Assembly (NCBI RefSeq): GCF_030845195.1
Contig: NZ_CP132543.1
Location: forward strand, 1,691,501-1,755,500
Reading direction: 5' to 3'
Length of the DNA stretch: 64,000 nt
Source: Sanyastnella coralliicola
Lineage (GTDB): Bacteria; Bacteroidota; Bacteroidia; Flavobacteriales_D; Sanyastnellaceae
How positions within the stretch are numbered: the stretch's first letter is position 1; the number at the start of each line of letters is the position of its first letter. The notes under the pieces were generated by a model. It had not been told where the DNA came from. It was given only the letters and a program-made list of their open reading frames with translations, and did no database searches. A program made the translations under genes and the position numbers. Of the stretch, positions 4,727-56,858 are shown in pieces.

Positions 4727-5524
4727 CTAAGATACGAACTGATATCCAAATGACATAATTCGGTCACTCCGAACTCGCTTCCATTCAGCAAGTTGATTAT
4801 CGAATTTTAGCGAGGAAATAAGGGGTTCAGAGTTGTACCTGCGAACAAATTCTTCCTTTGTCAATAACTCTGGATCAACCAAATTATACACCCCTGACAT
4901 CTGTCCTACATCACACAGGAATCCTATCACTCCCAGAATATCTCGTAACCAAGTGACATTCACAGGACTTTTACTGTTGGTGATCATGCCATTTCTATGA
5001 TACATACGGTTCGGTTCACGACCCGGGCCAGCCAAACCTCCCATTCTGAAAATGCATATAGGTAGCCCATTATATGCTTCCTCTAATGCAAGAATTGAAA
5101 CGCCCGAATGCCTTGAAACAATAGTAGCAGCATCATCCTCAAAAACGTCTCTATTGAGATTAGGGTAAGCTCCAGTAGAACTAAGGAGCACAGCTTGCTT
5201 GACACCGTGCAATCTCAGTTGACGTGCAATGGCCTCATGACCTCGTTGAGCTGCGTTTTCTACGCGATCACTTTTCGGTGGTGTGATGGTGACAATGACC
5301 AAATCAGCTTCAAAGACCTCCGAATGCACCATTGTAATGGCCTGTAGAAATTCATCGCTTAATACATCGAGCACTTCTAAGCGTATTCCTTCCTGTGCCA
5401 AGGCTTCTTTCCTAGCAGATGACCTCGAAGTCACCACCACCTCTCTGCCTTCCTTTCTCAGCTTCCGCGCTAGCGCCAACCCGCTCCAGCCACTTCCTAT
5501 GATAGATACCTTTGAAAAGTTCAT
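4727..5524 (-). CDS. NAD(P)-binding Rossmann-fold epimerase/dehydratase-like protein
   Basis: A 265-residue protein with an N-terminal dinucleotide-binding loop, GSGWSGLALA, at about residues 9-18 and an SSTGAY segment where extended SDR enzymes carry their catalytic serine. It resembles the YeeZ-type NAD-dependent epimerase/dehydratase group, whose substrates are mostly unknown. The canonical YxxxK pair is not clear, so catalysis as a typical SDR is uncertain. The start at 5524 (MNFSKVSIIG) puts the first beta strand at the N-terminus; an in-frame ATG 12 bases upstream is possible. It is divergent from the following thiol-disulfide oxidoreductase gene. Confidence 0.78.
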   Translation of the reverse strand: MNFSKVSIIGSGWSGLALARKLRKEGREVVVTSRSSARKEALAQEGIRLEVLDVLSDEFLQAITMVHSEVFEADLVIVTITPPKSDRVENAAQRGHEAIARQLRLHGVKQAVLLSSTGAYPNLNRDVFEDDAATIVSRHSGVSILALEEAYNGLPICIFRMGGLAGPGREPNRMYHRNGMITNSKSPVNVTWLRDILGVIGFLCDVGQMSGVYNLVDPELLTKEEFVRRYNSEPLISSLKFDNQLAEWKRVRSDRIMSFGYQFVS

Positions 5525-5570
5525 TGTCGAAATCAATTTGGCAACACTAGTGGTGAATATTTGTTAATCC

Positions 5571-5578
5571 TACCTTTG
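5571..5578 (+). promoter_or_regulatory. Bacteroidota -7 promoter element (TACCTTTG)
   Basis: TACCTTTG matches the Bacteroidota housekeeping consensus TAnnTTTG exactly and lies 54 bp upstream of the ATG at 5632. A convincing -33 element at standard spacing is not obvious. Confidence 0.55.
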
Positions 5579-5631
5579 AGGAACAACTTTTGCACTCAAA
5601 AGGTAGTCATCGAAACAAACCAACAACGATT

Positions 5632-7682: not shown

Positions 7683-7699
7683 TCGCTATCTTTTCGATT

Positions 7700-8017: not shown

Positions 8018-8183
8018 CTTGCCATTTTCTAATCATAGCTTTGGGATTCACACTCTTATTCTAATTTATTGAGCTTGAGCATCCAAGCAGCCCTATAGGT
8101 CGAGATAGCAAGCTTCTTCTCAACCTACCTTGTGAGTGCGTCGAAACTATTCTAGCTTCAGCTTCACAACAAACACCTAAACT

Positions 8184-9161: not shown

Positions 9162-9180
9162 CGGAATTAGCTAGAAAGAC

Positions 9181-9212
9181 AAAGCCCGTTCAATCGAACG
9201 GGCTTTTTTATT
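9181..9212 (+). terminator. Rho-independent terminator
   Basis: A perfect 11-bp stem, AAAGCCCGTTC with GAACGGGCTTT, and a 4-base loop precede a T-rich run. It ends the T9SS cargo gene and directly abuts the left copy of the tRNA-derived repeat at 9213. Confidence 0.93.
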
Positions 9213-9230: not shown

Positions 9231-9248
9231 GTATTTGAGCAATTTTAA

Positions 9249-10592: not shown

Positions 10593-10599
10593 TCAATAA

Positions 10600-14921: not shown

Positions 14922-15024
14922 ATTCGATATTCTGAAACAAAGATAGTGTTCCTTTTGGGGCTTTTTGTTTCCTCTTTTCGCTAGCGAGGAATAGGAAATC
15001 CTTGGAATTTCCGACCTTCGGAAT

Positions 15025-16119
15025 GTGAAGATCGTGATCGTTTCTGTCTTCCCTCCGTTCCGTGGAGGTATTGCTCAATTTAACGAGCACATGATGAGTG
15101 CATTAGTGGACCAAGGACATGAGGTACACGCCATCAATTTCAAGCGTCAGTATCCTCAACTCATCTTTCCTGGGAAAACACAATACCTCGATGACCATCG
15201 CGAAATCGCCAATACCCCTGCACTTTTAGACTCCATCAACCCGCTTAGCTGGAAACGTACTGCGAGCCATGTAAACTCATTGAATGCCGACTTAGTCATC
15301 ATTCCTTACTGGACCGGCTACCTGGCTCCTGCCCTTGCTTCGGTTGCACATCGTTGCACTGCTCCGGTTCTAGGATTGCTCCACAATGCGATTCCACATG
15401 ACGCCGGAAGCTTTCAACAGAAACTTGGGAGACGTTTTATCGACGCCTGTGATCGCTACATCACGCTTTCTGAAAGTGTATCGAATGACCTTCTTCGATT
15501 GCGTCCCAATGCTTCGGTAACACAAGCTTTTCATCCAATTTACACTCATCTTGGTGAATCGCTAGCGCGGAACGCTGCTTCCCAGCTTCTTGGTGTAGAC
15601 GATGACAAGAAAACACTGCTCTTCTTTGGATTGATTAGGCCTTACAAAGGACTTGACGTCTTGTTGAAAGCCTTCAATAAACTCCCTTCAGAATACCAAC
15701 TATTAGTTGCAGGAGAAGCCTACGAAGATCAAGACAAATATGAGGCAATGATTGATCAAGCGGCCAAGAACAGAGTTGTCTTCTCCAATGGGTTCATTCC
15801 AGACGATGAAGTCAACCGTTGGTTTTCAGCATGTGACCTAGTGGTGTTACCCTATAAGTCTGCAACTCAAAGTGGTGTGACGGCTACAGCACTTCACTTC
15901 AATAAAGCGATCGTAGCATCGAACGTAGGTGGTCTCTCAGAATACATTGACCACGAATCCACAGGGATGTTGGTTCCACCTTTGGATGAGACCGCACTGA
16001 GCGAGGCCATTCTTCGCTGGTTTCACGGAAGCGATTCCGCGCTAGCGAGAGAAGAAAGCATACAAAAGAAAAAGGATCAATTCAGCTGGAAGCGATTCGC
16101 CCAGTTGATTACTTCGTGA
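15025..16119 (+). CDS. Glycosyltransferase family 4 (group 1)
   Basis: The 364-residue protein has the GT-B layout. The N-terminal domain starts MKIVIVSVFPPFRGGIAQFN with the glycine-rich acceptor loop, and the C-terminal domain carries LLFFGLIRPYKGLDVLLKAF, a VVLPY segment with Ser/Thr behind, and AIVASNVGGLSEYI. The canonical EX7E region is weakly preserved (ATQSGVTATALHFNKAIVA). It probably transfers a sugar from a nucleotide donor to a surface glycan or lipid. Start is GTG at 15025, preceded by stops. Two copies of the dispersed TCGCTAGCGCGGAA motif lie inside it (15559, 16035). It converges with and overlaps the DoxX gene by 11 bp. Confidence 0.86.
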   Translation: MKIVIVSVFPPFRGGIAQFNEHMMSALVDQGHEVHAINFKRQYPQLIFPGKTQYLDDHREIANTPALLDSINPLSWKRTASHVNSLNADLVIIPYWTGYLAPALASVAHRCTAPVLGLLHNAIPHDAGSFQQKLGRRFIDACDRYITLSESVSNDLLRLRPNASVTQAFHPIYTHLGESLARNAASQLLGVDDDKKTLLFFGLIRPYKGLDVLLKAFNKLPSEYQLLVAGEAYEDQDKYEAMIDQAAKNRVVFSNGFIPDDEVNRWFSACDLVVLPYKSATQSGVTATALHFNKAIVASNVGGLSEYIDHESTGMLVPPLDETALSEAILRWFHGSDSALAREESIQKKKDQFSWKRFAQLITS

Positions 16120-16486: not shown

Positions 16487-17556
16487 GGTGCAATGGCTTG
16501 GTATCCAGCACCAGAATTAGGACTAGGTGCAAATGCTCCAATCGGACGAAGCAAGGCATTGAATACAAATGTCTGAATCAAAGTCACCTCACTTCCTTTG
16601 ACCACTCCATACATACGAGACTCATCCCACTTCGGAAGGTTTCCATTGGCATCAGGAACTTGAGCAGTCCCAGCAATCGGCTGCTTGTAGTAGATGTCAA
16701 TCTTCTTGCGATTTCCTGAATTCTCTAGCACGCTCAAGGTGAAAGCCGGATTGGTGTTCAACAAGCTATCTTCTTGAGACTCCGTCAGGTGAGACATGTA
16801 GGTCTCAACGTGCACTTTCTTGTAAAGCAAGAGGTAATTCTTAACGGCCAAGGTGTCGAACAGGGGAACATCGCGCTGCAGCAACTCGCTGTGGAGTTTC
16901 AAATCGTTTCCACCGTTATACTTGATGGTGAAAGACAACTCAGGAGATTCATGGTGTTGCACCGTCACCTCACTGATATCTAGTTCAGGGTAATCGAATA
17001 CACCAGTATATCGCCAATCATTCTCATCCGTGAAGAAGCGTGTACTCAAGAATCCAGTGAATCCTTCCATGTGTGTAATGAATGGTTCTGAAGATCGTCC
17101 GTCTTCAGGAGTCTCTAGAAGCATGTAGGTTCCCGTGTGATCTTGAGTAGCATTCCCGACGATGTAGGTTTTAGATAGCTGTCCGTTTTCATAGATCTCT
17201 ACCTTCTTACCTCCAGATGACAATAGGCGGATAACGTTATCACGTGCGGCTTCTGGCACGGTAGATTTTACTCCAATGCGAGTGAACGTCTTCAGAAGCA
17301 GGTCCACAGCATCCTTTCGTGCTTTGTACTTGCCATTTAGATCCCAGTAGCGGCTATCTGCGTCGCGCTCCAGTGTAATGGTGCGTTCGTGCACATCAGC
17401 GATAAAGATCTTATCCACCTGAGAGGTATCCGCGATAGCGAAATCCGTCAGCGCATTCTTTGACATGGAAGACTGCCCGTCATTCATGTACCACATCACT
17501 CCTGCTCCTAGCGTCAAGGCTACGAGTATCAATAAAAGACGAAGGTTCTTACGCAT
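16483..17556 (-). CDS. DUF4340 domain protein, gld-linked
   Basis: 357 residues: an N-terminal membrane anchor (LRLLLILVALTLGAGVMWYM) and then a large periplasmic beta-rich region. That region includes the DUF4340 hallmarks of a repeated TITLERDADSRYWDLNG-like start, a VEIYENGQLSKTYIVG stretch and an RFFTDENDWRYTGVFDYP segment. DUF4340 proteins commonly follow a GldG-like subunit in auxiliary ABC systems. It overlaps gldG by 8 bp, so it is translationally coupled and likely works with the transporter at the inner membrane. Exact role unknown. Confidence 0.82.
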   Translation of the reverse strand: MRKNLRLLLILVALTLGAGVMWYMNDGQSSMSKNALTDFAIADTSQVDKIFIADVHERTITLERDADSRYWDLNGKYKARKDAVDLLLKTFTRIGVKSTVPEAARDNVIRLLSSGGKKVEIYENGQLSKTYIVGNATQDHTGTYMLLETPEDGRSSEPFITHMEGFTGFLSTRFFTDENDWRYTGVFDYPELDISEVTVQHHESPELSFTIKYNGGNDLKLHSELLQRDVPLFDTLAVKNYLLLYKKVHVETYMSHLTESQEDSLLNTNPAFTLSVLENSGNRKKIDIYYKQPIAGTAQVPDANGNLPKWDESRMYGVVKGSEVTLIQTFVFNALLRPIGAFAPSPNSGAGYQAIAP

Positions 17557-19306
17557 ATTTCTCAGTATAACGACGCTTTCTCATCCACATCAGAACCATT
17601 CCCGCGATAGCGATAACTAACAGCGGACCAGCAACATTCAATACTTGAATTAAGCCGCGATTGTCTTTTATGGATTCAGCGTCTAGCTTTCTCAGCTCAA
17701 TCGTACGCGAACGGATGCTGATCATTTCAGGATCATCCAGCAGGTAGTTGATTGCATTGAGAAGGAAATCTTTATTGTCGTACACTACTTTGCGAGCGTA
17801 GCGATCATATCCTAGTGGTAGCGGTGCAAAGCCACCTTCCACTGGCATGAATTTGTTGCGACCGATATCACCATCGGCAACCACAATCATACGCGTTGGC
17901 AAACTTGTTTCACGGAAGGCGAAGTTAGGATCACGCACGAGTGTATCAGCCAATCTCCCTTTGAAGTTACTTGTGAACTCCCCTTCTAGCAAGGCCGCTA
18001 GCGGGAATGATTCATGAGGTCCGTTGCGGAAATAATCAATATCAAAGTCTACAATCGCTGGATTCACCCTTACTGGGGCTTTGCGCTCAAGCGAAAGTTC
18101 ACTGGAAGCCAGCAGTACCGTCTTTTCAACTTGAGGGTTATTCCCAACCAAGCTCAATGAAGAGGTGAAGTCAAAGTGAATCGGATCTAAGTTTGTACAA
18201 ATCGGGTGTGCGTTAGCATCAGGAATCACCACTGGCGCGAAATACCAGTTCTGAAGCTGCATGTTGCGCTGGTTCCCAAGCGGACCTCCATCCAAAAGGA
18301 TTGGAGCACACTGGTAGTCAATGATCAGGTTGCGGTTGATACGAACGCCATAGTCGAAGAGCATGTCGTACAAGCCCATTTCATTGGTATTCGCTAGGGC
18401 TTGCTGATTTACTCGAAGGCTATCAAGGTCAGTTATGATCGGGTCAATCATCCAAAGCACCGCACCTCCGTTCATGATGAACTGATCAAGGATAATCTTA
18501 TCACCTCTTGAGAATGCGCTATCTGGTTTAGCTACGATGAGAAGATCATAACGGTTGGTGCGTTCTGGAGCAGTTTCAACTTTGTCGCTCAAGGCGTTCA
18601 CTCTGCCACCGATCTCAACACGCTCGACGTCGTAATCATCTTTCAAGGTCTCAACAAGATCAGCCGTCTCGATTGGCAATAGCTCGTCATGTCCTTCTAA
18701 AACACCAATAGCCGGACGATCGTCGCGCATCAGCATTCGCAGCTTGGAAGCGAACTCATACTCGATGTTGTTGATCGAAGAATTCACCATTTCATCCGTT
18801 GGCTCAGGCGACTGGCTATTGAACAACTGAACAGTGATCTCCTTCCCTTTATAGGTCATTATTGCACCTGGCCAGATGTTCTGGTAGTTGTTTACACCAT
18901 TCTCTTCGTAGGCGATGCGGGTGAACTGAAGTCCTTGTTCATAGAGTGCTTCTTCGTTCTCACCAATCGTCTGGTCATCTTCAGATGCGTAGATATCAAT
19001 GAATTCGTACTCGATATTGCCGTTAGCGAAATCATCGAATTCGTCAAGGCGTTCACGAATCGCTTTCTGTAGGCGCTTGAAACGCGCTGGGAAATCTCCA
19101 TCAAGGTAACAACGGATGTAGACCGTTTCCTCGAGCGAGCCAAGCATTTGCTCCGTTGATTCCGTGAGTGTGTGACGCTTCTCTTCGGTCAAGTCAATCT
19201 TAGCAAAAGCAAAGCTTGAAGCAAAACCAATCACTACCAGAATGGCAAGGCTCAACAGAAGCTGCACCAAGTCGTTTCGGCGGTATGTCTTCTTGTGTTC
19301 TACCAT
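17549..19306 (-). CDS. gldG: Gliding-motility ABC transporter auxiliary protein GldG
   Basis: 585 residues with one N-terminal membrane helix (LVQLLLSLAILVVIGFASSF), a large periplasmic domain and a C-terminal helix (LNVAGPLLVIAIAGMVLMWM) followed by a basic tail. The order KIDLTEEKRHTLTEST, VYIRCYLDGDFPARFKRLQK, GVLEGHDELLP and MNGGAVLWMIDP is that of GldG. With GldF and the ATPase GldA (not in this window) it forms an ABC complex required for gliding in Flavobacterium johnsoniae. It overlaps both gldF and the DUF4340 gene. Confidence 0.93.
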   Translation of the reverse strand: MVEHKKTYRRNDLVQLLLSLAILVVIGFASSFAFAKIDLTEEKRHTLTESTEQMLGSLEETVYIRCYLDGDFPARFKRLQKAIRERLDEFDDFANGNIEYEFIDIYASEDDQTIGENEEALYEQGLQFTRIAYEENGVNNYQNIWPGAIMTYKGKEITVQLFNSQSPEPTDEMVNSSINNIEYEFASKLRMLMRDDRPAIGVLEGHDELLPIETADLVETLKDDYDVERVEIGGRVNALSDKVETAPERTNRYDLLIVAKPDSAFSRGDKIILDQFIMNGGAVLWMIDPIITDLDSLRVNQQALANTNEMGLYDMLFDYGVRINRNLIIDYQCAPILLDGGPLGNQRNMQLQNWYFAPVVIPDANAHPICTNLDPIHFDFTSSLSLVGNNPQVEKTVLLASSELSLERKAPVRVNPAIVDFDIDYFRNGPHESFPLAALLEGEFTSNFKGRLADTLVRDPNFAFRETSLPTRMIVVADGDIGRNKFMPVEGGFAPLPLGYDRYARKVVYDNKDFLLNAINYLLDDPEMISIRSRTIELRKLDAESIKDNRGLIQVLNVAGPLLVIAIAGMVLMWMRKRRYTEKYA

Positions 19307-26152: not shown

Positions 26153-28144
26153 CTATCGTAAGATAACCACACTTCCTTTACGAACGATGGCATTTCCTTT
26201 ATGACTGATGGCTTTGGTGATGTAAGAGTACACCCCATCCATCACGTAATGACCGCCACCTTGGAATGATCCATTCCAGCACTGGCCGGTTTCATTCGTA
26301 CGCCATACCTCTTCTCCCCATCGGTTGAATAGAATCAACTCGAATTCTACGATGTTGAGCGTTTCCGGACACCAAACATCATTCAATCCGTCGTTATCAG
26401 GAGTAAAGGCATTTGGAATGTAGAGCGCATAGTCACAGTCTTCAAATACTAAGGTCACCTCTGCGGAATCTGTGCCACATTGGTTCGATACAATTGCTTG
26501 ATAATACCCGCTCTCCGTGATCTCCCGCATGAACTCAGTACTGCCATCATTCCATAGGACCGAATCATTCCATGGACCACTGGCGTCTAAATCGACAATG
26601 TCTCGCATGCACAGTATCTGGTCATCCACCAGCACGACTTCAGGATATTGAAGATTGAAAATGCTCGTCTCATCGTTGACGTAGCATTGTTGGTTGTTGA
26701 GAATGACGCTATAGTCTCCTTCTGCAGAAACGGTGATCGAGTCAGACATCTGTCCGTTGGACCATAAGCCTGGTTGAGAAGCTCCCAGGGTCACCGTCTC
26801 TCCCGGACATAAGAACACCTCTTCAGGTAAGTTAACCTGCGGGTAGGCGATGACATTTAAGAAAACAGAATCTCTTCGTGTGCATCCTTGGTTCTCCACT
26901 TCCATCCAGTACCAACCTTGTTGGTTCACTGTGATTGAAGTGCCAACATCCCCTGTGCTCCAAAGCCCTTCCGCGTTAGCGCTAAAAGTAAAATCACCAT
27001 CAACACATATCGAAGTATCAGGACCAAGGGCAATGGTCGGCAGGAACGGCGTAGTTACCGCGATATCATCGCTAGCCTCACAACCGAGTGAACTAACCGT
27101 CACAGAATAACCTCCAGGTTGATCAACAGTAATTTGATTGGTAGACTCCTGGGTACTCCATTCTACAGACTCCCAGCCTTGCCCGACGTCTAATACCGTG
27201 CTCTCCCCTTCACAAATCACAACATCCTCTCCTAAATCAGGAGTCGGAAGCGGATTCACTGTGACCGTGATTTGATCTGTTTGAACACAACCTAAACCAG
27301 CAGTATCCGCTACCAGGTCGTAAGTGAAAGTCACTGGCGTAGAGCCACCGTTTACCAAAGTCACAGAAGGATTGGCGATTTCATCGTCGTTCAAGCCATC
27401 TCCTGTCCATTCATAGCTAAAATTGTCGATATCCGTCGATCCAAGCTGCACCGTCTCACCACTGCAAATGGTAATATCGTTTCCAGCATCAATGATATTC
27501 TCAACTACGTAAGGCATGCAGGTTGTGAAGGTGATATCGTCGATTCCAAAATCATTGCCCCCTCCATTGGTTTGTTGGTTCACCAAACAGATATCAATCG
27601 ATGTATTGGCCCCACTGTACCAGTCTTCCGCGAATTCTTGCCAACCGCCACTCACCGTTTGAGAAGCCCCGAGAGGAACTCCGTTAATATTGAATTGTAA
27701 CTGGGCGTATATCGTGTTGTTTGGGTTGGTATCTACATTCCTACCCCATGCTGAGAAGCTATACCATGTATCGGGTTCAACGTCAATGGTTTGACACCAA
27801 ACATTGGTATTCGGCAATGAAGAACCATTCACGATCATGTAATTCCCTGTCGGCGGATTCGTATGATCAAACCCTGCGAAGAAATCATGGAAATTGGCCG
27901 CATTCGAACCGATGACATAGTTCCCTTCAAACGATAATAATCCCCAAGGACCATTTACCGTAGCCAAATTGTAATCGGTTGTAAAGCCTGTATTTCCTTG
28001 CTGAAAGTCGCCATTGGTGACCAAATTTCCGCTCAAGAACTCACAGGCCCCACATTGCGCCTGCGCTTGTCCTGCCGCTACGAATAAGACGAGCGCTACT
28101 AGACAGGTTTTCCAGTGATTGATATGTTGAGTGAGAGAACTCAA
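26153..28144 (-). CDS. Large secreted protein with type B T9SS (CHU_C) C-terminal domain
   Basis: The 663-residue product has a signal peptide (KTCLVALVLFVAAGQAQAQ) and an N-terminal jelly-roll module of the carbohydrate-binding kind (residues ~35-215, FGIDDITFTTC). Several Ig/PKD-like modules follow (repeated DAGNDITICSGETVQLG and GEDVVICEGESTVLD type starts). The C-terminal gliding-motility-associated domain has YIPNAFTPDNDGLNDVW and ELILFNRWGEEVW. It should be exported by T9SS and attached to or released from the cell surface. The start is TTG at 28144: no ATG lies before the signal peptide, and a promoter-like TATCTTTG is 35 bp upstream. One dispersed-motif variant sits at 26969. Confidence 0.88.
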   Translation of the reverse strand: MSSLTQHINHWKTCLVALVLFVAAGQAQAQCGACEFLSGNLVTNGDFQQGNTGFTTDYNLATVNGPWGLLSFEGNYVIGSNAANFHDFFAGFDHTNPPTGNYMIVNGSSLPNTNVWCQTIDVEPDTWYSFSAWGRNVDTNPNNTIYAQLQFNINGVPLGASQTVSGGWQEFAEDWYSGANTSIDICLVNQQTNGGGNDFGIDDITFTTCMPYVVENIIDAGNDITICSGETVQLGSTDIDNFSYEWTGDGLNDDEIANPSVTLVNGGSTPVTFTYDLVADTAGLGCVQTDQITVTVNPLPTPDLGEDVVICEGESTVLDVGQGWESVEWSTQESTNQITVDQPGGYSVTVSSLGCEASDDIAVTTPFLPTIALGPDTSICVDGDFTFSANAEGLWSTGDVGTSITVNQQGWYWMEVENQGCTRRDSVFLNVIAYPQVNLPEEVFLCPGETVTLGASQPGLWSNGQMSDSITVSAEGDYSVILNNQQCYVNDETSIFNLQYPEVVLVDDQILCMRDIVDLDASGPWNDSVLWNDGSTEFMREITESGYYQAIVSNQCGTDSAEVTLVFEDCDYALYIPNAFTPDNDGLNDVWCPETLNIVEFELILFNRWGEEVWRTNETGQCWNGSFQGGGHYVMDGVYSYITKAISHKGNAIVRKGSVVILR

Positions 28145-28191: not shown

Positions 28192-28659
28192 ATGAAAAGG
28201 GAAGATTTAGTCAGACACTTGATGAATGATGAAAAGCTAACTGTTGAGATCGACGGCAAACCCGCCATACTAGGATCATCGGAAGCCTTTTCAACCGCTG
28301 AACTGACCTCCGATCAATGTGAGGTATTACTTGCTGACCCAAATGCCCTTGAGCGATACACGATCCCCCTCACAGACGGTATGTGGGATATCGTAGACCT
28401 TACTGACAACGAGATTTCCATTGGTCTTCCGCTTGCTTATAATCTCGCTAGCGCGGAAAAAGGCAGCTCCCTCTGGTTCCGCATTCCCAAAGATGATTCT
28501 CTCCGCTCCATCTGTCGCAAAATCAGAAGGCCACTTGCGCTCCTTCGGAACTCGCAGACTCCAATCGATTCCACCATCGGTTTCAGACAGGGAAAGTTGG
28601 AGCGAATTGCTTTTGATGAAGTAGGACGAATCATTTCTGTTAAAGGGCGGAAGGGCTAA
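28192..28659 (+). CDS. Hypothetical protein with a repeat-embedded stop codon
   Basis: 155 residues, no signal peptide, no family recognised. The sequence is acidic at the N-terminus (MKREDLVRHLMNDEKLTVEI) and basic at the end (VGRIISVKGRKG). Its last codons and TAA stop lie inside the left arm of the 16-bp inverted repeat (28653-28668) that brackets the next gene, so the C-terminus may have been altered when that block arrived. It carries an exact copy of the dispersed TCGCTAGCGCGGAA motif at 28445. Confidence 0.65.
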   Translation: MKREDLVRHLMNDEKLTVEIDGKPAILGSSEAFSTAELTSDQCEVLLADPNALERYTIPLTDGMWDIVDLTDNEISIGLPLAYNLASAEKGSSLWFRIPKDDSLRSICRKIRRPLALLRNSQTPIDSTIGFRQGKLERIAFDEVGRIISVKGRKG

Positions 28660-32876: not shown

Positions 32877-33502
32877 TGAAACGACTCCCACTCTTCTTCC
32901 TGGCTTCGCTTTTCATGTTTGCTTGTTCAAATTGTGACACAGACCCGAAAGACCCTCAAGGAGAGAATCCTACTGAAGATACTACTGCCACCACTGGATT
33001 CGTGCGCACAGCAGAGAACTTCGATGGCGTGAACGAGTTTTCTCAGGAAGTCTTGGATAGCCTGAAAATGACCTACCAGTTCCCTGCTGAAGACGGACTT
33101 TACTTTGTGCCTAAGCACTCGCGCGTAACCATTGACTTATTGCCATTACAGATTTGGACGCGCATGGTGAATCGGCGCGAGGATTGGCGCAGTGATGAGC
33201 ATCCAGAATACAATTGGGTACAATTCCATCGCTTTGACCATACTGACATTACTTGTGGTGGACGTCCTGCCGAGATCAACGAAATTGATGGCGGATTTGA
33301 TCTTTTCATTCCGTTCGATGGAAATACCTCCAATCGCGTTAAAGACTTACTTGCAAAGTACCCAGAAGGTCTATTCACTTTAATGATTGATGAAAAGGCA
33401 ACCAGCATTCATCCATTAGGCATCGACATTGGCAGTGACGGAATCCATGTAAAACATGGAAATCGTGCTGTACTTGACAGCATTCAGACACGCTTTAAAT
33501 AG
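32873..33502 (+). CDS. Lipoprotein of unknown function
   Basis: 209 residues: lipoprotein signal peptide (MMKRLPLFFLASLFMFACSN), a low-complexity acidic and threonine-rich linker (residues ~22-45), and a folded domain with WTRMVNRREDWRSDEHPEYN and DITCGGRPAEIN. No family identified. It overlaps the SDR gene by 4 bp and the glycosyltransferase gene by 1 bp, so SDR, lipoprotein and glycosyltransferase are one transcript. Confidence 0.78.
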   Translation: MMKRLPLFFLASLFMFACSNCDTDPKDPQGENPTEDTTATTGFVRTAENFDGVNEFSQEVLDSLKMTYQFPAEDGLYFVPKHSRVTIDLLPLQIWTRMVNRREDWRSDEHPEYNWVQFHRFDHTDITCGGRPAEINEIDGGFDLFIPFDGNTSNRVKDLLAKYPEGLFTLMIDEKATSIHPLGIDIGSDGIHVKHGNRAVLDSIQTRFK

Positions 33503-34605
33503 TGGACAATAAGCGAATCGCCTTTTATTGTAGCTCCATTAGCTGGGGCGGACTAGAGATGAATGTCTTGCGATTCGCTTTGCGCATGAAAAAAGCGCAT
33601 CAAATCGTGACCTTGGTCTGTGTGCAAGATTCTCCTCTTGACAAAGCAGCTCAGAAAGAAGAACTCTCGGTTATTCATGTTGAACGGAACAAGAAATACT
33701 TCGATTTCTCCTCGGCCAGGAAGATTGGAAAGATTTTTAATGAGCTGAACGCAGATGTAGTTTGGATCCGCGATACCAGAGACATTGATGTCTGCGGCTG
33801 GGCAAAACGCTTCTCGAAGCGGAAGTTTAAACTTCTGTACCAACAGGCAATGCAGTTTGGCGTTTCGAAGAAAGACCCAGCACATACCTTCCGATTCCGA
33901 CAGATTGATATTTGGGTGGCTCCTCTGCCCTTTCTCGCTGATCAAGTGAAGAACATGACGCGATTCCCGAAGGAAAGAATTCACACCATTCCTCTGGCGG
34001 TGAATATGGATCGCTTCAAACAGAAGTCAGAGAAAAGTGAGGTCCGTAATGAACTAGGTTTGCCCACAGAAGCGCTTCTTCTCGGGAATATCGGCCGAAT
34101 TGACCCATTGAAGGGCCAGCAATTCCTCATTGAGTCGTTCATCATTTTGGCCCAAGAACGAGCTGACTTGCACCTTCTCATCATGGGTGATCCAACGAAG
34201 AATGAAGGTGATGCGTTCATTCAAAAATTGAAGGCGATTGTCGCTAACGCGGAATTGGATAGTCGTGTGCACTTCCTTCCTCATCGAAGTGACGTCGAAA
34301 AGGCATTTGGTGCACTCGACATCTTCGCTATGACCAGTGTGGGGGAAACATTCGGAATGGTCACCATCGAAGCCATGGCCAGTGGGTTGCCGATCATCGG
34401 CACCAACACATCAGGTACTCCAGACTTATTAGGTCACGGAGAAATCGGAATGCTCTACACGCCCGGTAACATCGATGCGTTCAACTCTCATGTACGCGCC
34501 TTATTCGACAAGGAACTTCGAACAACGCTATCGCGGAAATCGGAAGAAGGCAGTAGACGATTTGAAGAAAGTGTGGTTGTGGAATCGTTGCTGGGAATAC
34601 TCTGA
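33502..34605 (+). CDS. Glycosyltransferase family 4
   Basis: 367 residues with GT-B hallmarks: N-terminal WGGLEMNVLRFALR acceptor loop, a linker near 175, and a C-terminal nucleotide-sugar domain with LLGNIGRIDPLKGQQFLIES and the E-x7-E region ETFGMVTIEAMASGLPIIGT. It starts with GTG on the last base of the preceding stop. Probable role in surface polysaccharide or lipid glycosylation. One-mismatch copies of the dispersed motif lie at 34241 and 34526. Confidence 0.88.
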   Translation: MDNKRIAFYCSSISWGGLEMNVLRFALRMKKAHQIVTLVCVQDSPLDKAAQKEELSVIHVERNKKYFDFSSARKIGKIFNELNADVVWIRDTRDIDVCGWAKRFSKRKFKLLYQQAMQFGVSKKDPAHTFRFRQIDIWVAPLPFLADQVKNMTRFPKERIHTIPLAVNMDRFKQKSEKSEVRNELGLPTEALLLGNIGRIDPLKGQQFLIESFIILAQERADLHLLIMGDPTKNEGDAFIQKLKAIVANAELDSRVHFLPHRSDVEKAFGALDIFAMTSVGETFGMVTIEAMASGLPIIGTNTSGTPDLLGHGEIGMLYTPGNIDAFNSHVRALFDKELRTTLSRKSEEGSRRFEESVVVESLLGIL

Positions 34606-42006: not shown

Positions 42007-42072
42007 TGCACTTTTCCGCCTTTGGCGAAAGAGGAAAAAGAAATATCATTGCTTTGGAATCGTTCAAAGCAT

Positions 42073-42621
42073 ATGCGCCTTCTCCTTCTTCTCAGCTCTT
42101 TAGTATTATTCGCTAGCGCGGAAGCACAAATTATCTCGAGTGATTCTATTCCTACATGGACAAAACCACCTTTCTTCCATAGAGATCACGGATATGGCTC
42201 AGCTTTACTAAATAGCGAACGTTCCTTAGGAATCATGCCTGAAGTCAGCGCCTTTTCACAATACCCCGTAGGTCTTGCCCTAGGCTTAGGTCAATTCATG
42301 AATGGTGAAGGTGGCGGCACTTCATTCGGGATCTACGGAGGTGGAAACTACAGTTGGACCTACGAAACCATCGCTCCCAAAGTGGGTGTATGGGCTCACA
42401 CCTACGCCTTTGTCGCTGGAGTGAACGCAGGTGCAGATATGCATTGGTACCCAACAGACAACGGACGGTCACTTATATTCAGACCGAAAGTGGGCATCGG
42501 ACTGTACAAGTTCTTTATCTATTACGGACGAAACTTTGGAGACCTCTTTGAAGTCGAAGGTGTACACAGAAACAGCATCACCATCACTGGCTACATCACC
42601 ACTTTCCCTTGGAAACGTTAG
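42073..42621 (+). CDS. Predicted outer-membrane beta-barrel protein
   Basis: 182 residues: signal peptide (MRLLLLLSSLVLFASAEAQ) followed by alternating aromatic/aliphatic strands with glycine turns (GLALGLGQFMNGEGGG, FGIYGGGNYSWTYET, GVWAHTYAFVAGVNAGADM), ending in a strand FPWKR. This fits a small 8-stranded beta-barrel. The dispersed 14-bp motif lies within the signal peptide codons (42110). It overlaps the convergent msrB by 4 bp. The ATG at 42073 fits the signal peptide. Confidence 0.75.
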   Translation: MRLLLLLSSLVLFASAEAQIISSDSIPTWTKPPFFHRDHGYGSALLNSERSLGIMPEVSAFSQYPVGLALGLGQFMNGEGGGTSFGIYGGGNYSWTYETIAPKVGVWAHTYAFVAGVNAGADMHWYPTDNGRSLIFRPKVGIGLYKFFIYYGRNFGDLFEVEGVHRNSITITGYITTFPWKR

Positions 42622-48186: not shown

Positions 48187-48194
48187 TACATTTG
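48187..48194 (+). promoter_or_regulatory. -7 promoter element (TACATTTG)
   Basis: Exact TAnnTTTG match ending 6 bases before the ATG at 48201; another near-leaderless start. Confidence 0.6.
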
Positions 48195-48200
48195 GTGTCT

Positions 48201-49103
48201 ATGCTATTCAGTCCTTACCCATTCCGCGCTAGCGATAACCACCAGCTACATGTCTATAAATCAGACGTACCCAACGCAAAGATGAATTTGCTCATCGTGC
48301 ATGGTATGGCTGAACATGGTGCGCGCTATGAACGTTTCGCGAAAGCAGCAGCGGAAAAAGGCATTCAAATCATTGTTCCAGACTTGCGTGGTCATGGACG
48401 TACTAGTGAGCTAAACGGACAACGTGGTGTCTTCGGTGAAGGCGGTTGGAAACGCGTGGGTGAAGATGTCGGTGAATTGGCCACTCAAATCACAAACGAA
48501 ACGAATCTTCCACTTTATGTTCTCGGACATAGCATGGGTTCGATGGTTGCGTTAACGACCATTGAACGCGGGTTGATTCAACCTAAAGGTGCCATATTGA
48601 GTGCTTTGCCCCCACATCCGGGAGCGTTGGTTTATGCCGGTAAGGTGCTATCGAAAATTGTGAGTGTTTTTAAAGACAAGAACAAGCCGAATCACTTCAT
48701 GGATAAGCTGACATTTGGTGAGTTTAATAAAGGTATCGCTAACGCGGAAACGAGCTTCGATTGGCTTTCTAGAGATCAACAAGAAGTGAAGAAATACATC
48801 GATGATCCTGATTGTGGAGAGGTGTTTAGTACAGGCTTCTTCGGCCAGCTAGCTGATTTGACCGACTTTGCACACAAGAATCTGTCGAAGGTTGATAAGA
48901 CCTTACCTATCCTATATATCGCGGGTAATGCTGACCCTGTCGTTGAAAAAGAGAAAGGCACGGAAAAGGTGATTGATGCGTTTCAGAAACATAGCTCTGC
49001 TTTCACTGCGCAGATCTTTCATGAAGCACGCCATGAACTCTTGAATGAAACGAATCGTGATCAGGTGACTGCTTTTGTACTTGATTGGATTGAACAACAT
49101 TAA
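48201..49103 (+). CDS. Alpha/beta hydrolase, monoacylglycerol-lipase-like
   Basis: 300 residues with LIVHGMAEHGARYERFAKAA, PDLRGHGRTSEL, the nucleophile elbow LGHSMGSMVAL (Ser near 112), an Asp in IAGNADPVV and a His in HEARHELLNE. This is the serine aminopeptidase/monoacylglycerol-lipase group (Hydrolase_4). No signal peptide. The dispersed motif occurs twice (48222 exact, 48736 one mismatch). The next gene starts 4 bp later, so both are one operon. Confidence 0.93.
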   Translation: MLFSPYPFRASDNHQLHVYKSDVPNAKMNLLIVHGMAEHGARYERFAKAAAEKGIQIIVPDLRGHGRTSELNGQRGVFGEGGWKRVGEDVGELATQITNETNLPLYVLGHSMGSMVALTTIERGLIQPKGAILSALPPHPGALVYAGKVLSKIVSVFKDKNKPNHFMDKLTFGEFNKGIANAETSFDWLSRDQQEVKKYIDDPDCGEVFSTGFFGQLADLTDFAHKNLSKVDKTLPILYIAGNADPVVEKEKGTEKVIDAFQKHSSAFTAQIFHEARHELLNETNRDQVTAFVLDWIEQH

Positions 49104-49106: not shown

Positions 49107-50144
49107 ATGAAGAAAGTCATTCGCATAGTACTTATCCTGGGGCTCATTTTCGGGCTGTATGTTGCAGGTGTTCTGATTTATGGAACGGTGACTGACTTTC
49201 AGCCAGAGGAACTCATCGATATCAGCATCGAAGGCAATCCGTCTACCTCTCCTGACAGTACCTTCACTTTTGTGACCTGGAATATTGGATTCACTGCCCT
49301 GGGTGAAGAGACTGATTTCTTCTACGATGGCGGCACCACGGTGATTCAAACAGAAGAAATTGTTAAGAAGAACCGTGAGGGCATGGCAGAGATCATCGCT
49401 GAACTCGATGCCGATGTATACCTCTTTCAAGAAGTTGATAGCGTAGCTAAACGAAGCCACCGCGTGAATCACGTCGATTTCTTTGCAGAAGCTATTCCCA
49501 ACCATTCTCATGCATTCGCGGTGAACTATCAGGTAGATTTTGTGCCCGTGCCGCTGTACAAGCCAATGGGAAAAGTCATTTCTGGACTAGCGAATTACTC
49601 GCGTTTCCCATCAACCAATGCGGAACGCCATGCCTACCCTACGCAGTTCAGCTGGCCAACCAGTATCTTCTTCTTAGATCGTTGTTTTCTTTCGCAGCGC
49701 ATTCCCTTAGACAATGGAAAAGAGCTCATTGCCATTAACACCCATTGTTCTGCCTATGATACTTCAGGCACCTTGGTTGCTGAAGAGATTAAGCTTTTAA
49801 TGGATTTCGCTAGCGCGGAATTCGACAAGGGTAATTACGTAGTGATTGGTGGAGACTGGAATCAATGTCCACCCAACTATACTCCCAAGAACCCAGATCC
49901 CGCCTCATACGGCGAGTTTATCTTGGAAGAAGATCAGCTTCCGGAGGGATTTTCATGGGTTGCAGATCCCACGATTCCAACCAATCGTAAGCTAGAGACC
50001 GTATACACCGACAGTAGTTATACGTCAGTAATCGATCATTTTGTGGTTTCTTCTAATGTGCAGGTAGAAAGGGTTCAGGTTGTAGATCACGACTTTGCGT
50101 TCTCAGATCACCAGCCGGTTACTCTCGAATTTCGTTTGAAGTAG
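49107..50144 (+). CDS. Endonuclease/exonuclease/phosphatase family protein
   Basis: 345 residues: an N-terminal membrane anchor (IRIVLILGLIFGLYVAGVLI) and an EEP domain with FVTWNIGF, DVYLFQEVDS, NTHCSAYDT, IGGDWNQCP and the catalytic SDHQPV at the end. These are metal-dependent phosphodiesterases or phosphatases; the anchor puts this one outside the inner membrane. Exact dispersed motif at 49807. Its 3' end overlaps the convergent gene by 26 bp. Confidence 0.9.
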   Translation: MKKVIRIVLILGLIFGLYVAGVLIYGTVTDFQPEELIDISIEGNPSTSPDSTFTFVTWNIGFTALGEETDFFYDGGTTVIQTEEIVKKNREGMAEIIAELDADVYLFQEVDSVAKRSHRVNHVDFFAEAIPNHSHAFAVNYQVDFVPVPLYKPMGKVISGLANYSRFPSTNAERHAYPTQFSWPTSIFFLDRCFLSQRIPLDNGKELIAINTHCSAYDTSGTLVAEEIKLLMDFASAEFDKGNYVVIGGDWNQCPPNYTPKNPDPASYGEFILEEDQLPEGFSWVADPTIPTNRKLETVYTDSSYTSVIDHFVVSSNVQVERVQVVDHDFAFSDHQPVTLEFRLK

Positions 50145-53067: not shown

Positions 53068-54430
53068 TGTAATCAACAAATATCGCCGCCATCTGCTAGA
53101 AGAGATATCGATCTGGCCACTGGTCACGCTGCGCGTGGCCTTTGGTCTTTTAATGACCTTCGCTGCGCTGCGCTTCTGGTATTACGGTTGGATTGATGAA
53201 TTATACATCCAACCAGACTTCCATTTCAGCTACTTTGGAATGGATTGGATCCAGCCTTTACCAGGCATCGGCATGTACCTCGTTTTCGCAGGACTAGCCA
53301 TCTCTGCCTTCTGTATTGCCATTGGATTCAAGTTCCGGTTGATGTCGGTGAGTTACTTCCTGCTTTTCACTTACGTGGAATTGCTTGATAAGGCCACCTA
53401 CCTCAACCATTACTACTTCATCAGCATCGTTGCCTTCCTCCTCTGTTTCTCACCTGCGCACAAAGCGCTGAGTGTAGATGTTTGGAGAAAAGGCAGCTCT
53501 GTATCAAAAGTACCGCGCTTCTTCATCTGGTCGTTCATGCTGCAACTCGGTATCGTTTACTTCTTTGCTGGAGTTGCGAAGTTGCACTCAGAATGGCTTT
53601 TTGCTGCCATGCCAATGCGCACGTGGCTACCAGCACGCGCAGACATGCCTATCATCGGCTGGCTGTTTATGTATGAAGAAACGGCCTACGTATTCTCATG
53701 GGCTGGCGCCTTGTACGATCTATCCATCGCCTTCTTGCTGTGTTGGCGAATTACTAGGCCATTCGCCTACCTGTCGGTGGTGGTCTTCCATATTTTGACC
53801 TGGATGCTCTTCCCGATTGGGATTTTCCCATGGGTCATGATCTTCATGACATTGATCTTCTTCCCTGCACATTACCACGCGTTTATTTGGTCTCCAATTC
53901 AGCGTTTCTTTGAAGCATCTGGTCGTGTTGTTTCTCGCCTAACGGCGGAACGGAACCCTGTTCCTTCAATCATCCTTGGGGTGTTTGTACTTCACTTTAT
54001 CGTGCAACTCGTCACACCACTAAGAAGTCACTGGCAATCCGAAAACATCTTCTGGGATGAGCTAGGCTTCCGATTCTCTTGGCGAGTGATGCTAATTGAA
54101 AAAGCGGGAGCCATTGAGTTCTACGTCGTCGACCCGAGAACGGGAAGAAAAGCCATCGTGGCTCCTTCCGAACACCTCACGAAGCTACAGGAGCGGGAAA
54201 TGGCGACGCAACCTGATATGATTATTGAATACGTCCACTACCTCGCAGATATCTACCGAGAGAAAGGCATCGAATCGCCTGAGATCTACGCAGATTCATG
54301 GGTGGCGGTGAATGGCAGTGGTTCACAACGATTCATTGACCCGAAGGTCAACCTCATGAGCGTTGATCCCAACGATCGCTTGTCGTGGATGTTGAAACAA
54401 GAATACTACGTGCAGTTCGGTGAGAAGTAA
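53060..54430 (+). CDS. HTTM protein, vitamin K-dependent carboxylase-like
   Basis: 456 residues with HTTM (horizontally transferred transmembrane) architecture: helices from VTLRVAFGLLMTFAALRFWY onward. The LLDKATYLNHYYF and FFAGVAKLHSEWL signatures are those of vitamin K-dependent gamma-carboxylase, including Lys174, which corresponds to the catalytic base region. FHILTWMLFPIGIFPWVM and a C-terminal soluble domain (LRSHWQSENIFWDELGFRFSWR) follow. Bacterial HTTM proteins are of unknown substrate. Within this operon it may modify or help the lipoproteins or receptor. GTG start, overlap with both neighbours. Confidence 0.88.
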   Translation: MIDVINKYRRHLLEEISIWPLVTLRVAFGLLMTFAALRFWYYGWIDELYIQPDFHFSYFGMDWIQPLPGIGMYLVFAGLAISAFCIAIGFKFRLMSVSYFLLFTYVELLDKATYLNHYYFISIVAFLLCFSPAHKALSVDVWRKGSSVSKVPRFFIWSFMLQLGIVYFFAGVAKLHSEWLFAAMPMRTWLPARADMPIIGWLFMYEETAYVFSWAGALYDLSIAFLLCWRITRPFAYLSVVVFHILTWMLFPIGIFPWVMIFMTLIFFPAHYHAFIWSPIQRFFEASGRVVSRLTAERNPVPSIILGVFVLHFIVQLVTPLRSHWQSENIFWDELGFRFSWRVMLIEKAGAIEFYVVDPRTGRKAIVAPSEHLTKLQEREMATQPDMIIEYVHYLADIYREKGIESPEIYADSWVAVNGSGSQRFIDPKVNLMSVDPNDRLSWMLKQEYYVQFGEK

Positions 54431-56858
54431 GAAGCTACTCATATTGACCCTTTGCTTCCTCGCCTCATTCGCTGCTCAGGCGAGTGATGATCATTCGTTC
54501 AAAGTGATCGTCACCGACAGCGCTAGCGACCGTCCCCTACCCTTTGCCAACATTATCATTAATGAAACGCAGGGATTCATCACTGACAATCTCGGTCAGG
54601 CCCAAGTCGGCGTCAAGGAAGATAACTTCCTACTTAGCATTCGATACCTCGGCTACGAGAACATCGATAGCCTCATTGATTTGAAAAGAGTCTCACTTCC
54701 TCTGCGCGTTAAGCTTCAGCCCATTACCACCGAGCTAGGAACGGCCATCATTTCAGACGACCAAGGGATCAACAACGGTCCTTCAGCAAGCGTAGAACGA
54801 TTCACGGTCTATGCTGCAAAGAAGGCAGACATTATTCGTCCGAAAGAGATTCCGATCAACAGCGCTACCAATAACGCACGCCAGCTCTTTGCACAAGTAG
54901 CAGGACTTAATATCTGGGAAAGTGGAGATGGTGGCGCACAGCTTTCGATTGGTGGTCGAGGTCTTGACCCTAGTCGTACTTCAAACTTCAATACCCGCCA
55001 GAACGGATACGACATCTCTGCGGATCCTTTGGGTTACCCTGAAGCATACTACACCCCTCCACCACAAGCGATTGAGCGTATTGAATTGATTCGAGGCGCA
55101 GCGAGTTTACAGTTCGGTCCACAGTTCGGCGGGATGCTCAACTTTGATTTGATTGATGCCCCACAGCGCACCATTGGTGTGATCAGCGAACAGAGTTTGG
55201 CTTCGTTCAATACCTTCTCCTCATTCAACGCGTTTGGACATTCTTCTGAAAACATGCAGGTGATGGGCTACTGGCACCACCGCCAAGGCGACGGATGGAG
55301 AGAGCGTAGCGCTTTTGAATCCAACAACTTCCATGGCAAAGTTGTCTTGGGGAAATCAACTGACCGTCGCATCACTTTTGAATACACGCATTACAAGTAC
55401 CTCGGCGAACAGCCTGGCGGACTCACAGACAAAGCCTTCGAGGAAGACCCAAGCCAAGTGCTGCGTGAGCGCAATTGGTTCAACGTTGAATGGAATCTCG
55501 CTGCTGTGATCTGGGAGCAAAAACTCGGACAAAACCTTCAACTTCAGGTTCGTCCGTTCTGGCTACGCGCCCATCGCCTAGCCCTGGGCCACCTCGGCAG
55601 AATCAACCGCGCTGACCCAGGTGGGAATCGCGATCTCATCGAAGGAAACTTCCACAACTGGGGTGTAGAATCACGTCTTCGCTTTGACTGGTCTTTGGGA
55701 GATCTACCTTCTACCCTTGTTACTGGTGTACGCTATTTCAACGGGCAAAACACCAACATTCAAGGTTCCGGAAGTGATGACGACACACCGAACTTCACTC
55801 AAATCTCAGACGAGTTGATCAACAGCTCAGACTATGAATTTGACAACCTGAACCTTGCTTTCTTCGCTGAGCAAGTATTCCGCGTTAGCGAAAAAATGAC
55901 CATTACTCCAGGGATACGCACTGAGTACATTCAAACAGCTTCAGAAGGAAGCTATACACAAGTGTTATTTGACGGCGCAGGAAATCTACTGCCTACCTAC
56001 CCTCGTATATTCAACAGTAATGATCAACGCGACCGTACAATCTTCTTGTTTGGTGTAGGAGTTTCGCGAAAGTTCAGAACGAATCAAGAGTTCTACGCAA
56101 ACTACTCACAGAACTACCGCGCGATTAACTTCAATGACATTCGCATCATTAACCCAAACCAGGTGGTAGACACCAACATGGTTGACGAAAGTGGACACAC
56201 AATTGACCTTGGTTTTAGAGGCAGCATTGGGAATGCGATATACATTGACGCGTCTGCGTTTATTCTCTCGTACAACAACAAGATTGGTAACAAGCTGGAT
56301 ACCATGACCGTGAGTCAAACGCTGGGCCCGCAATTGGTTCGAGTACGCACCAACCTTTCAGAAGCCTACACCAAAGGAATTGAATTCACCACTGAAATTG
56401 ATCCCCTCTGGTGGTGGGAAGGAAACCAAGACCTGAAGCTTCGCATCTTCGGAAACGTAGCCATCACAGACGCCGTTTATCGCTCAGACGAAGATCCCAC
56501 CCTAGACGGCAACTTCGTAGAGTATGCCCCACGTTGGAACGTTAAAACCGGCGTAAGAGTCAACTGGAAAGCCTTCAACACCTACTGGCAATGGACCTAC
56601 GTCTCTGAACAGTTCACCGATGCCTCCAACGCCCCAGAAGGATTCGACATCAACGCCGTCGTAGGTGCCATCCCATCCTACCAAATCCACGACATCGGCA
56701 TCGGCTACAGCTACCGCGACTTCACCCTCTCCGCTGGGGTAGACAATCTCCTAGACACGAGCTACTTCACTCGCAGAGCAAGTGGATACCCCGGGCCTGG
56801 GATCTTGCCGGCTGATCCGAGGAACTTTTACTTGTCGTTGAGGCTTGATTTGTGGTAA
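54420..56858 (+). CDS. TonB-dependent outer-membrane receptor
   Basis: 812 residues: signal peptide (LLILTLCFLASFAAQASD), an N-terminal carboxypeptidase-regulatory-like domain (SDRPLPFANIIINETQGFIT, residues ~28-105), a plug domain (RQLFAQVAGLNIWESGDGGA, RIELIRGAASLQFGPQFGGM) and a 22-stranded barrel ending SLRLDLW. Plug and barrel features resemble FecA/siderophore receptors rather than SusC. Fourth gene of the Fur-box-preceded operon, start GTG overlapping the HTTM gene. Substrate probably a metal complex or a peptide product; inferred. A one-mismatch dispersed motif lies at 55878. Confidence 0.93.
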   Translation: MRSKKLLILTLCFLASFAAQASDDHSFKVIVTDSASDRPLPFANIIINETQGFITDNLGQAQVGVKEDNFLLSIRYLGYENIDSLIDLKRVSLPLRVKLQPITTELGTAIISDDQGINNGPSASVERFTVYAAKKADIIRPKEIPINSATNNARQLFAQVAGLNIWESGDGGAQLSIGGRGLDPSRTSNFNTRQNGYDISADPLGYPEAYYTPPPQAIERIELIRGAASLQFGPQFGGMLNFDLIDAPQRTIGVISEQSLASFNTFSSFNAFGHSSENMQVMGYWHHRQGDGWRERSAFESNNFHGKVVLGKSTDRRITFEYTHYKYLGEQPGGLTDKAFEEDPSQVLRERNWFNVEWNLAAVIWEQKLGQNLQLQVRPFWLRAHRLALGHLGRINRADPGGNRDLIEGNFHNWGVESRLRFDWSLGDLPSTLVTGVRYFNGQNTNIQGSGSDDDTPNFTQISDELINSSDYEFDNLNLAFFAEQVFRVSEKMTITPGIRTEYIQTASEGSYTQVLFDGAGNLLPTYPRIFNSNDQRDRTIFLFGVGVSRKFRTNQEFYANYSQNYRAINFNDIRIINPNQVVDTNMVDESGHTIDLGFRGSIGNAIYIDASAFILSYNNKIGNKLDTMTVSQTLGPQLVRVRTNLSEAYTKGIEFTTEIDPLWWWEGNQDLKLRIFGNVAITDAVYRSDEDPTLDGNFVEYAPRWNVKTGVRVNWKAFNTYWQWTYVSEQFTDASNAPEGFDINAVVGAIPSYQIHDIGIGYSYRDFTLSAGVDNLLDTSYFTRRASGYPGPGILPADPRNFYLSLRLDLW

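Follow-up and report, generated by a model that had tools for sequence, protein, structure and literature searches.

The window analysed here, a 64-kb stretch of the Sanyastnella coralliicola genome (C1:1691501-1755500 of a single contig of 4,097,636 bp; source genome, G000), carries a dispersed 14-mer, TCGCTAGCGCGGAA, which we describe as a predicted DNA hairpin and a probable DNA uptake sequence. Six exact copies are present, four on the plus strand (15559, 28445, 42110 and 49807) and two on the minus strand (16035 and 48222), exactly where the first-pass annotation of this DNA had placed them. With up to two mismatches allowed, 15 sites are found in the window against 0.24 expected from shuffled sequence, and none of 100 shuffles reached 15. 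The one-mismatch sites reported at 5463, 34241, 48736 and 55878 were likewise recovered, the first and last on the minus strand. The further 'close variants' exist too, however two of them were off by one base (17428 and 34525, given as 17429 and 34526), that at 14978 differs by only one mismatch, and the two-mismatch site at 17600 had been overlooked. For comparison we used two congeners (G001 and G002) and two genomes of a sister genus in the same family (G008 and G027); the carriers other than G000, namely G001, G008 and G027, are fragmented assemblies (80, 220 and 300 contigs). The sites in the window are as follows.

5463..5476, minus strand: hairpin motif GCGCTAGCGCGGAA (stem CGC/GCG, loop TAGC), in a gene for an NAD-binding-type protein (4727-5536)
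14978..14991, plus strand: one-mismatch relative TCGCTAGCGAGGAA, one stem pair broken
15559..15572, plus strand: exact motif, frame SLARN, in a glycosyltransferase gene (15025-16119)
16035..16048, minus strand: exact motif, antisense, frame SALA, in the same glycosyltransferase gene (15025-16119)
17428..17441, minus strand: two-mismatch relative TCGCTATCGCGGAT, stem intact, GAA altered
17600..17613, minus strand: two-mismatch relative TCGCTATCGCGGGA, stem intact, GAA altered
26969..26982, minus strand: hairpin motif GCGCTAACGCGGAA, in a gene for a CHU_C-domain protein (26153-28144)
28445..28458, plus strand: exact motif, frame ASAE; G001 has CGCTGGCGCGGAA, with a single loop base changed
34241..34254, plus strand: hairpin motif TCGCTAACGCGGAA, in a glycosyltransferase gene (33502-34605)
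34525..34538, plus strand: hairpin motif ACGCTATCGCGGAA, in the same gene (33502-34605), broken in G001
42110..42123, plus strand: exact motif, frame ASAE, in an open reading frame (ORF; 42022-42621)
48222..48235, minus strand: exact motif, antisense, frame FRAS, in an alpha/beta hydrolase gene (48192-49103)
48736..48749, plus strand: hairpin motif TCGCTAACGCGGAA, in the same hydrolase gene (48192-49103)
49807..49820, plus strand: exact motif, frame ASAE, in an Exo_endo_phos gene (49107-50144)
53368..53380, plus strand: candidate CACTTACGTGGAA, compensated stem CAC/GTG, loop TTAC, which may be a chance match; new relative to the first-pass annotation
53936..53950, plus strand: CGCCTAACGGCGGAA, form with a 4-bp stem (CGCC/GGCG), loop TAAC; likewise new
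55878..55891, minus strand: hairpin motif TCGCTAACGCGGAA, in a TonB-plug receptor gene (54420-56858)

All six exact copies are located in ORFs, as had been claimed, but those at 15559 and 16035 share one glycosyltransferase gene, so that the six copies are spread over five genes. The genes of the window also include a CHU_C type IX secretion domain and an ABC_transp_aux protein, which we take to be GldG-like.

The element reaches far beyond the window. In the whole source genome the exact 14-mer occurs 290 times (144 forward and 146 reverse), as compared to 0 for the reversed control. When its first base is dropped and the seventh freed (CGCTANCGCGGAA), 770 copies (401 + 369) are present in G000 and 667 in G001, whereas each of the remaining 397 of the 399 genomes of the order, G000 being counted among these, holds 0 to 3, with a single one in the congener G002. 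The 13-mer form with G yields 430, 371 and 0 copies in G000, G001 and G002, respectively. Besides the motif, the top 12- and 14-mers in 464 kb of G000 were by inspection 7-bp tandem units or variants of the motif itself. Spacing in G000 is Poisson-like (variance/mean 0.95 for 190 sites in 196 bins of 4 kb). Among viral contigs, 60 stretches held a single match and 0 held two, which we took as chance, no formal expectation having been computed.

Judged from its sequence, the motif is a short hairpin, in which a stem of 3 or 4 bp with a C-G closing pair carries a loop TANC and is followed by GAA, the complementary strand reading TTC, stem, GNTA loop, stem and an A-rich stretch. A search for xyz-TANC-z'y'x'-GAA in 784 kb of G000 recovered 202 cases with complementary arms, where the margins predict 46, and with CGC/GCG set aside 40 remain against 7.5 expected. 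The variant stems are GGC/GCC (14 against 0.7 expected), CAC/GTG (7 against 0.27) and CTC/GAG (3 against 0.2); the first two are shared with G001, where they number 12 and 7, while G002 has 10 complementary cases against 5.4 expected and lacks the arms of all three. Around 162 perfect G000 copies, changes in one arm amount to 0-2 per position and letter, as compared to 14, 7 and 3 for paired double changes, and at the outer stem pair 15 paired doubles were seen where 0.06 would be expected from the one-arm changes. One orthologous site reads CGC/GCG in G000 and TGC/GCA in G001. Stems of 4 bp, mostly CxyC, are also in excess (21 against 2.25 expected in G000 and 11 against 1.3 in G001, with 0 against 1.0 in G002), and stems of 5-8 bp show no excess over chance. 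Loops of 3, 5 or 6 bases behind TTC and a stem gave no class comparable to GNTA; apparent 6-base loops CGNTAG were discarded as a separate loop class, being the 4-bp-stem form. The motif noticed on first pass is real and extends genome-wide; its hairpin nature, and the second dialect described below, had been missed.

In DNA folding, the 3-bp hairpin is the minimum on both strands (-2.7 and -2.4 kcal/mol), and the 4-bp form folds at -4.5 kcal/mol, with 3 of 200 shuffles as good. The main loop of the G000 motif is cGCTAg; the title of Nakano et al. 2002 counts d(cGNNAg) and d(cGNABg) among four stable DNA tetraloop motifs, and PMC6811676 describes cGCTAg as stabilising DNA and RNA hairpins alike. 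G.T wobble counts were uninformative as to which strand folds. As written, the motif has a T-rich side upstream in each of the four frame classes that were compared, and in three of these a G stands three bases past it.

In favour of a HIP1-like self-mark for methylation or restriction, the motif shares with that element a highly iterated, mostly coding occurrence on both strands. However, a methylase reading bases would not explain why paired stem changes are tolerated with single ones rare, and the octamer CGCTAGCG alone is hardly enriched, as 53 of its 61 sites in 464 kb precede CGGA. We hold this explanation to be extremely improbable; a hairpin whose stems can be exchanged as long as they pair does not resemble the methylation or mismatch-repair mark that had been suggested.

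G001 and G000 are 92% identical across 328 kb aligned (alignments below 500 bp or 84% identity were dropped), permitting an assessment of orthologous sites. All 12 fixed bases are kept in G001 at 63 of 74 G000 sites (54 aligned blocks), whereas 1271 of 3689 nearby control windows of the same phase are intact (34%; Fisher P 7e-19). Across 77 sites present in either species, 2.1% of core positions have changed against 8.2% in the flanks. A wider count, which admits any complementary stem ending in C with any loop TNNC and includes some chance matches, gave 90 shared sites, 13 in G000 only and 7 in G001 only; by class, 72 of 86 coding-strand sites, 17 of 22 antisense sites and 1 of 2 sites outside ORFs are shared. 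In the 784-kb sample, 187 of 190 hairpin copies are found inside ORFs of at least 80 aa and 3 in none, the motif-bearing proteins being of many different kinds. The coding-strand copies (133) fall into the frames xASAE/ANAE/AIAE (114), SLAR (17) and a third frame (2), and the antisense copies (54) into SALA (28) and FRAS (26); this tally covers TANC loops at sites more than 40 bases from either end of a stretch. Since antisense sites are conserved like sense sites, the constraint is on DNA: the motif is constrained as DNA and not as one protein or strand, in agreement with what had been argued from several frames, both strands and unrelated genes in the window.

These data bear on two further explanations. 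An RNA hairpin in mRNAs, acting as an RNA-protein binding site or processing signal, would be congruent with 187 copies in ORFs and 133 on the coding strand, and the loop stabilises RNA hairpins too (PMC6811676). On the other hand, 54 of the 190 copies are antisense and these are conserved alike, the excess in one sense frame is of the protein-tolerant xASAE type, and uptake sequences of Pasteurellaceae and Neisseriae likewise favour one orientation in reading frames, according to PMC2346458. This explanation appears very unlikely to us. We also give very little credence to a functionless mutational or gene-conversion bias, by template switching that perfects short inverted repeats or by biased repair. 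Quasi-palindrome correction does render arms complementary, but it offers no account of the fixed loop, C-G closing pair and GAA, of the confinement of stems to 3-4 bp, or of the retention of 63 of 74 sites, where the core changes so much less than the flanks.

G002 is more distant, with 65-70% identity to G000 in the longer matching pieces. Among homologues of at least 50% identity, the motif is ungapped in 15 of 16 alignments (13 distinct sites, one gapped), as exemplified by GAT TAC GCT AGC GCG GAA AAC in G000 versus GAC TAT GCT GAT GCC GAG AAT in G002, and several aligned motif sites are poorly conserved. The mostly ungapped alignments indicate that the motif arose mainly by substitution rather than insertion.

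Regarding replication, leading and lagging strands were assigned by GC skew, and a tally by hand of the 190 G000 sites yielded 82 leading and 108 lagging (P 0.07), hence no strong replichore bias was seen. Chi and KOPS, by contrast, display a strong strand bias along replichores, and the nucleoid or recombination site proposed on first pass is less well supported than uptake. The same observations weigh on the idea that the hairpins are sites of an intracellular structure-specific DNA-binding enzyme unrelated to uptake, for example a relative of HUH/REP-type transposases, a recombinase, or a protein of replication or chromosome organisation, an explanation we regard as unlikely. HUH enzymes and integron integrases are well known to target small DNA hairpins, and one Y1_Tnp match each is present in G000 (weak, 3e-4) and G001. 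Y1_Tnp is however also found in the motif-free G002, G003 and G010, and a REP/RAYT transposase thus does not track the motif. Moreover, the lack of strong strand bias, the Poisson-like spacing and the substituted rather than inserted appearance of the sites speak against such an enzyme, which would leave the coincidence with pilus genes, described below, unexplained.

The sister-genus genomes G008 and G027 were searched for a word of their own because both have PilB. In a k-mer screen of ten family members (24-40 kb each, plus named loci of at least 19 kb), the word of G027 was seen at 5 copies, GGCATTCGCCAAATGG being prominent in 31 kb of that genome. Its layout is GGC-ATNC-GCC-AAATG, plus a stem-swapped twin. 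The 15-mer GGCATTCGCCAAATG counts 254 in G027, 7 in G008 and 0 in the other 58 of 60 genomes, with 0 for the reversed control, and G008 carries 63 copies of GCCATTCGGCAAATG. Allowing either stem (GSCATTCGSCAAATG), 440 copies are found in G027 and 70 in G008, together 510. Stems are complementary in 150 of the 150 copies listed from these 510, with 0 unpaired: all 70 of G008 (GCC/GGC 63, GGC/GCC 7) and 80 of the 440 of G027 (GGC/GCC 46, GCC/GGC 34). The 22 stray GSCATTCGSCAAATG hits in the other genomes of the order comprise 12 paired and 10 unpaired (Fisher P 1e-10 against 150/0; both tallies were counted by hand). Thus, complementary stems in all listed copies of the second dialect indicate that both genera keep the fold and not the letters. 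In a design matching that of the G000 motif, this dialect has a 3-bp stem with a C-G closing pair, a loop ATNC (complement GNAT, of the cGNABg type) and a fixed, A-rich 3' flank, and 8 of 8 sampled G027 hairpins lie inside ORFs, four sense and four antisense.

Two G008 hairpins at L211 have 4-bp stems, GCCC-ATGC-GGGC-AAATG at 6387-6403 (plus strand) and GCGC-TAGC-GCGC-AAATG at 17705-17721 (minus-strand coordinates), so the second dialect may likewise include a form with a longer stem. In G002, a k-mer screen of 560 kb, which merged similarly flanked sites and so gave low counts even for G000, revealed no comparable dispersed word, just REP-like GCGCAAAAGCGC and triplet repeats; REP-like palindromic repeats of this motif-free congener also include AAGCGCGGGATG. 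Dialect candidates at L183 and in part of L201 were dismissed as they looked like gene repeats, as was that at L219, a palindrome counted on both strands.

Next we consider the genes for DNA uptake, for which operon families were scanned in G000, ORFs were read in G001 and G008, and G027 is represented by its PilB match only. ComEC is present in all six genomes looked at, G000, G001 and G008 among them. The T2SSE ATPase family is matched strongly in G000, G001 and G008 and only weakly in G003 and G007, with no match in G002, the congener without the motif. In G000, a pilus operon surrounds the T2SSE ATPase on the minus strand of L299. It encodes a pilin matching ComP_DUS (PF16732; E 2.2e-6, 28.9 bits against a cut-off of 27.3) and N_methyl, a prepilin-peptidase-like protein (A24, E 4e-4, below cut-off), a PilB/GspE protein (TIGR02538, 5.6e-143, yet below the strict cut-off of that model), a PilQ/GspD-type secretin and a weak PilN match. 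ORFs of matching sizes, in the same order and with a near-identical pilin, are found in G001, and in G008 ORFs resembling a secretin, PilB, A24 and a pilin follow the G000 order (assigned by eye except for PilB). Both a type IV pilus operon (G000 and G001) and ComEC were recovered as candidate competence genes. The PilB model matches 6 of 60 relatives and 51 of the 399 genomes of the order, two of the latter weakly. All four dialect carriers (G000, G001, G008 and G027) have a PilB-type ATPase, compared to 47 of 395 others (P 2e-4 if independent, but the carriers form only two clades).

The PilB/GspE-type matches are patchy but not rare in the order, and many belong to one family (f9). The gene directly upstream of the G000 pilin (L299:17928-19970, minus strand) encodes an Rhs-associated core domain (TIGR03696 8.8e-10), and L300:1-10000, beside the pilus operon, holds just three ORFs of at least 100 aa in 10 kb.

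Taken as a whole, the copy number, the presence in both orientations, the tolerant frames and the origin by substitution are as expected of uptake sequences, and so are the lineage-limited dialects, with a PilB-type ATPase in the four carriers and none in the motif-free congener. We therefore consider the motif to be probably a structurally novel kind of DNA uptake sequence, recognised as a hairpin. The uptake signal, which had been named first among the possible roles, holds up as far as tested, as the motif and a type IV pilus operon occur together; uptake itself is a reading of sequence data. There is about an even chance, in our estimation, that what is read are the fold, the closing pair, the loop and a short flank, with the other stem letters largely free, representing a shape-based code of self-recognition.

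The carrier marine Flavobacteriales would then be naturally competent, their pilus binding free DNA that bears the hairpin. The A/T-rich flank may melt or kink beside the hairpin, and the G+C-rich inverted repeat would fold out as a d(cGNNAg)-type hairpin, the fold of which could be read by the pilin together with the fixed TTC. Tagged DNA would be pulled through the PilQ-like secretin, enter via ComEC as single strands and recombine. Because tagged alleles would be taken up preferentially, tags would build up by point substitution where the protein tolerates them, while stem letters would drift as long as they remain paired, generating compensatory variants and, in the sister genus, another dialect.

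Pasteurellaceae and Neisseriaceae are both known to have uptake sequences; to our knowledge DNA recognition and bending through the secretin are still an open question in the field. The uptake signal sequence (USS) of Haemophilus and Pasteurellaceae resembles the present motif in its more than 1000 copies, short core, A/T-rich flanking tracts and uptake by a type IV pilus, however its core is fixed, whereas the stem letters of the G000 motif are interchangeable if paired, and it belongs to another phylum. At gene ends, USS pairs lying close together in opposed orientation can give rise to RNA hairpins (PMC7811141), whereas here every single motif is a hairpin, nearly always within an ORF. The DNA uptake sequence (DUS) of Neisseriaceae is a 12-mer with species dialects around a conserved CTG core (PMC3630211). 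Dialects are thus common to both, and the G000 operon has a pilin of the ComP_DUS Pfam family; on the other hand, the present dialects differ in loop, stem and flank yet keep the fold, and the G000 pilin also resembles general PilA. The likeness to cyanobacterial HIP1 drawn on first pass is general only. HIP1 is likewise a genome-wide iterated word located largely in genes, its sequence being GCGATCGC with orphan methylases, but the G000 word differs from it and carries a hairpin constraint. According to PMC4390886 HIP1 is a single fixed octamer tied to methylases, and the text of that paper has neither 'hairpin' nor 'compensatory'. Closer in phylogeny, Riemerella columbina (Flavobacteriaceae) prefers its own DNA in transformation, and PMC7965970 lists only A/T-rich k-mers of 7-10 bp as putative signals, with none established; it is akin to the present case as a flavobacterium with self-DNA preference, and differs in that no motif is established there.

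Several observations weigh against recognition of the hairpin in DNA uptake. The outer stem pair also has 4 unpaired doubles in G000, 3 of these A/C, and such A/C doubles number three in each of G000 and G001. The folding energies are modest, as 13 and 31 of 200 shuffles fold as well as the two strands of the 3-bp form, and a 3-bp hairpin should not be readily extruded by free linear duplex DNA. No T-rich side was clear by eye in the flanks of 8 G027 hairpin sites, and among distant homologues 14 of 69 alignments are gapped at the motif. USS-type uptake sequences have, typically though not universally, frequent intergenic copies, inverted pairs or terminators, whereas here ORF-free copies are if anything depleted (1 of 130 against 62 of 1500 random positions, with the 130 of the 190 sites at least 3 kb from a stretch end). 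As to the pilus, the G000 pilin is better matched by PilA_Myxo (NCBIfam, 2.9e-12) and the PDB PilA 8tj2 (7.7e-9); since its best named matches are of the general PilA type, the ComP_DUS match is no proof of a receptor, and the protein may be a major pilin instead of a dedicated receptor. No PilT was seen, with one strong T2SSE match each in G000, G001 and G008, and PilC was not identified in the operon. In addition, 47 of the 51 PilB-type genomes are without either dialect, and these may have other words or none. The PilB model matches 13 of 14 control genomes, and 0 of 399 genomes exceed its strict cut-off; given this promiscuity it marks PilB/GspE-type ATPases generally, some of which may belong to type II secretion. 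The apparent link between motif and pilus accordingly rests on two clades and one contrast (G002).

Within the literature as covered by our searches, no established uptake sequence of Bacteroidota and none of hairpin type was found, and the hairpin requirement would to that extent be new for uptake signals. If this is correct, the motif would represent the first case of an uptake signal recognised through a non-B DNA structure as well as, with the same literature scope, the first uptake sequence in Bacteroidota, and new uptake dialects would arise through compensatory drift without loss of function. A signal requiring a fold would make the old idea of strand melting directly testable. It could also explain self-preference in Flavobacteriales and offer a handle on gene exchange in marine Bacteroidota, and the stem-compensation test provides a means of detecting comparable signals elsewhere among genomes.

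Other repeats were observed in the course of this work. Many short arrays of 7-bp tandem units exist beside the hairpin motif in the G000 and G001 samples in which top k-mers were inspected, the leading units being partly different between the two species; in the window, 14-mers such as TGGACGGTGGACGG, with 5 copies each, are among these arrays. Finally, ATTTCGCTTTG occurs four times in unrelated contexts in a 21.7 kb piece (L154) of a flavobacterial metagenome-assembled genome, at 5102 on the plus strand and at 312, 13250 and 17654 in minus-strand coordinates; it has no obvious hairpin and is possibly another dispersed word.

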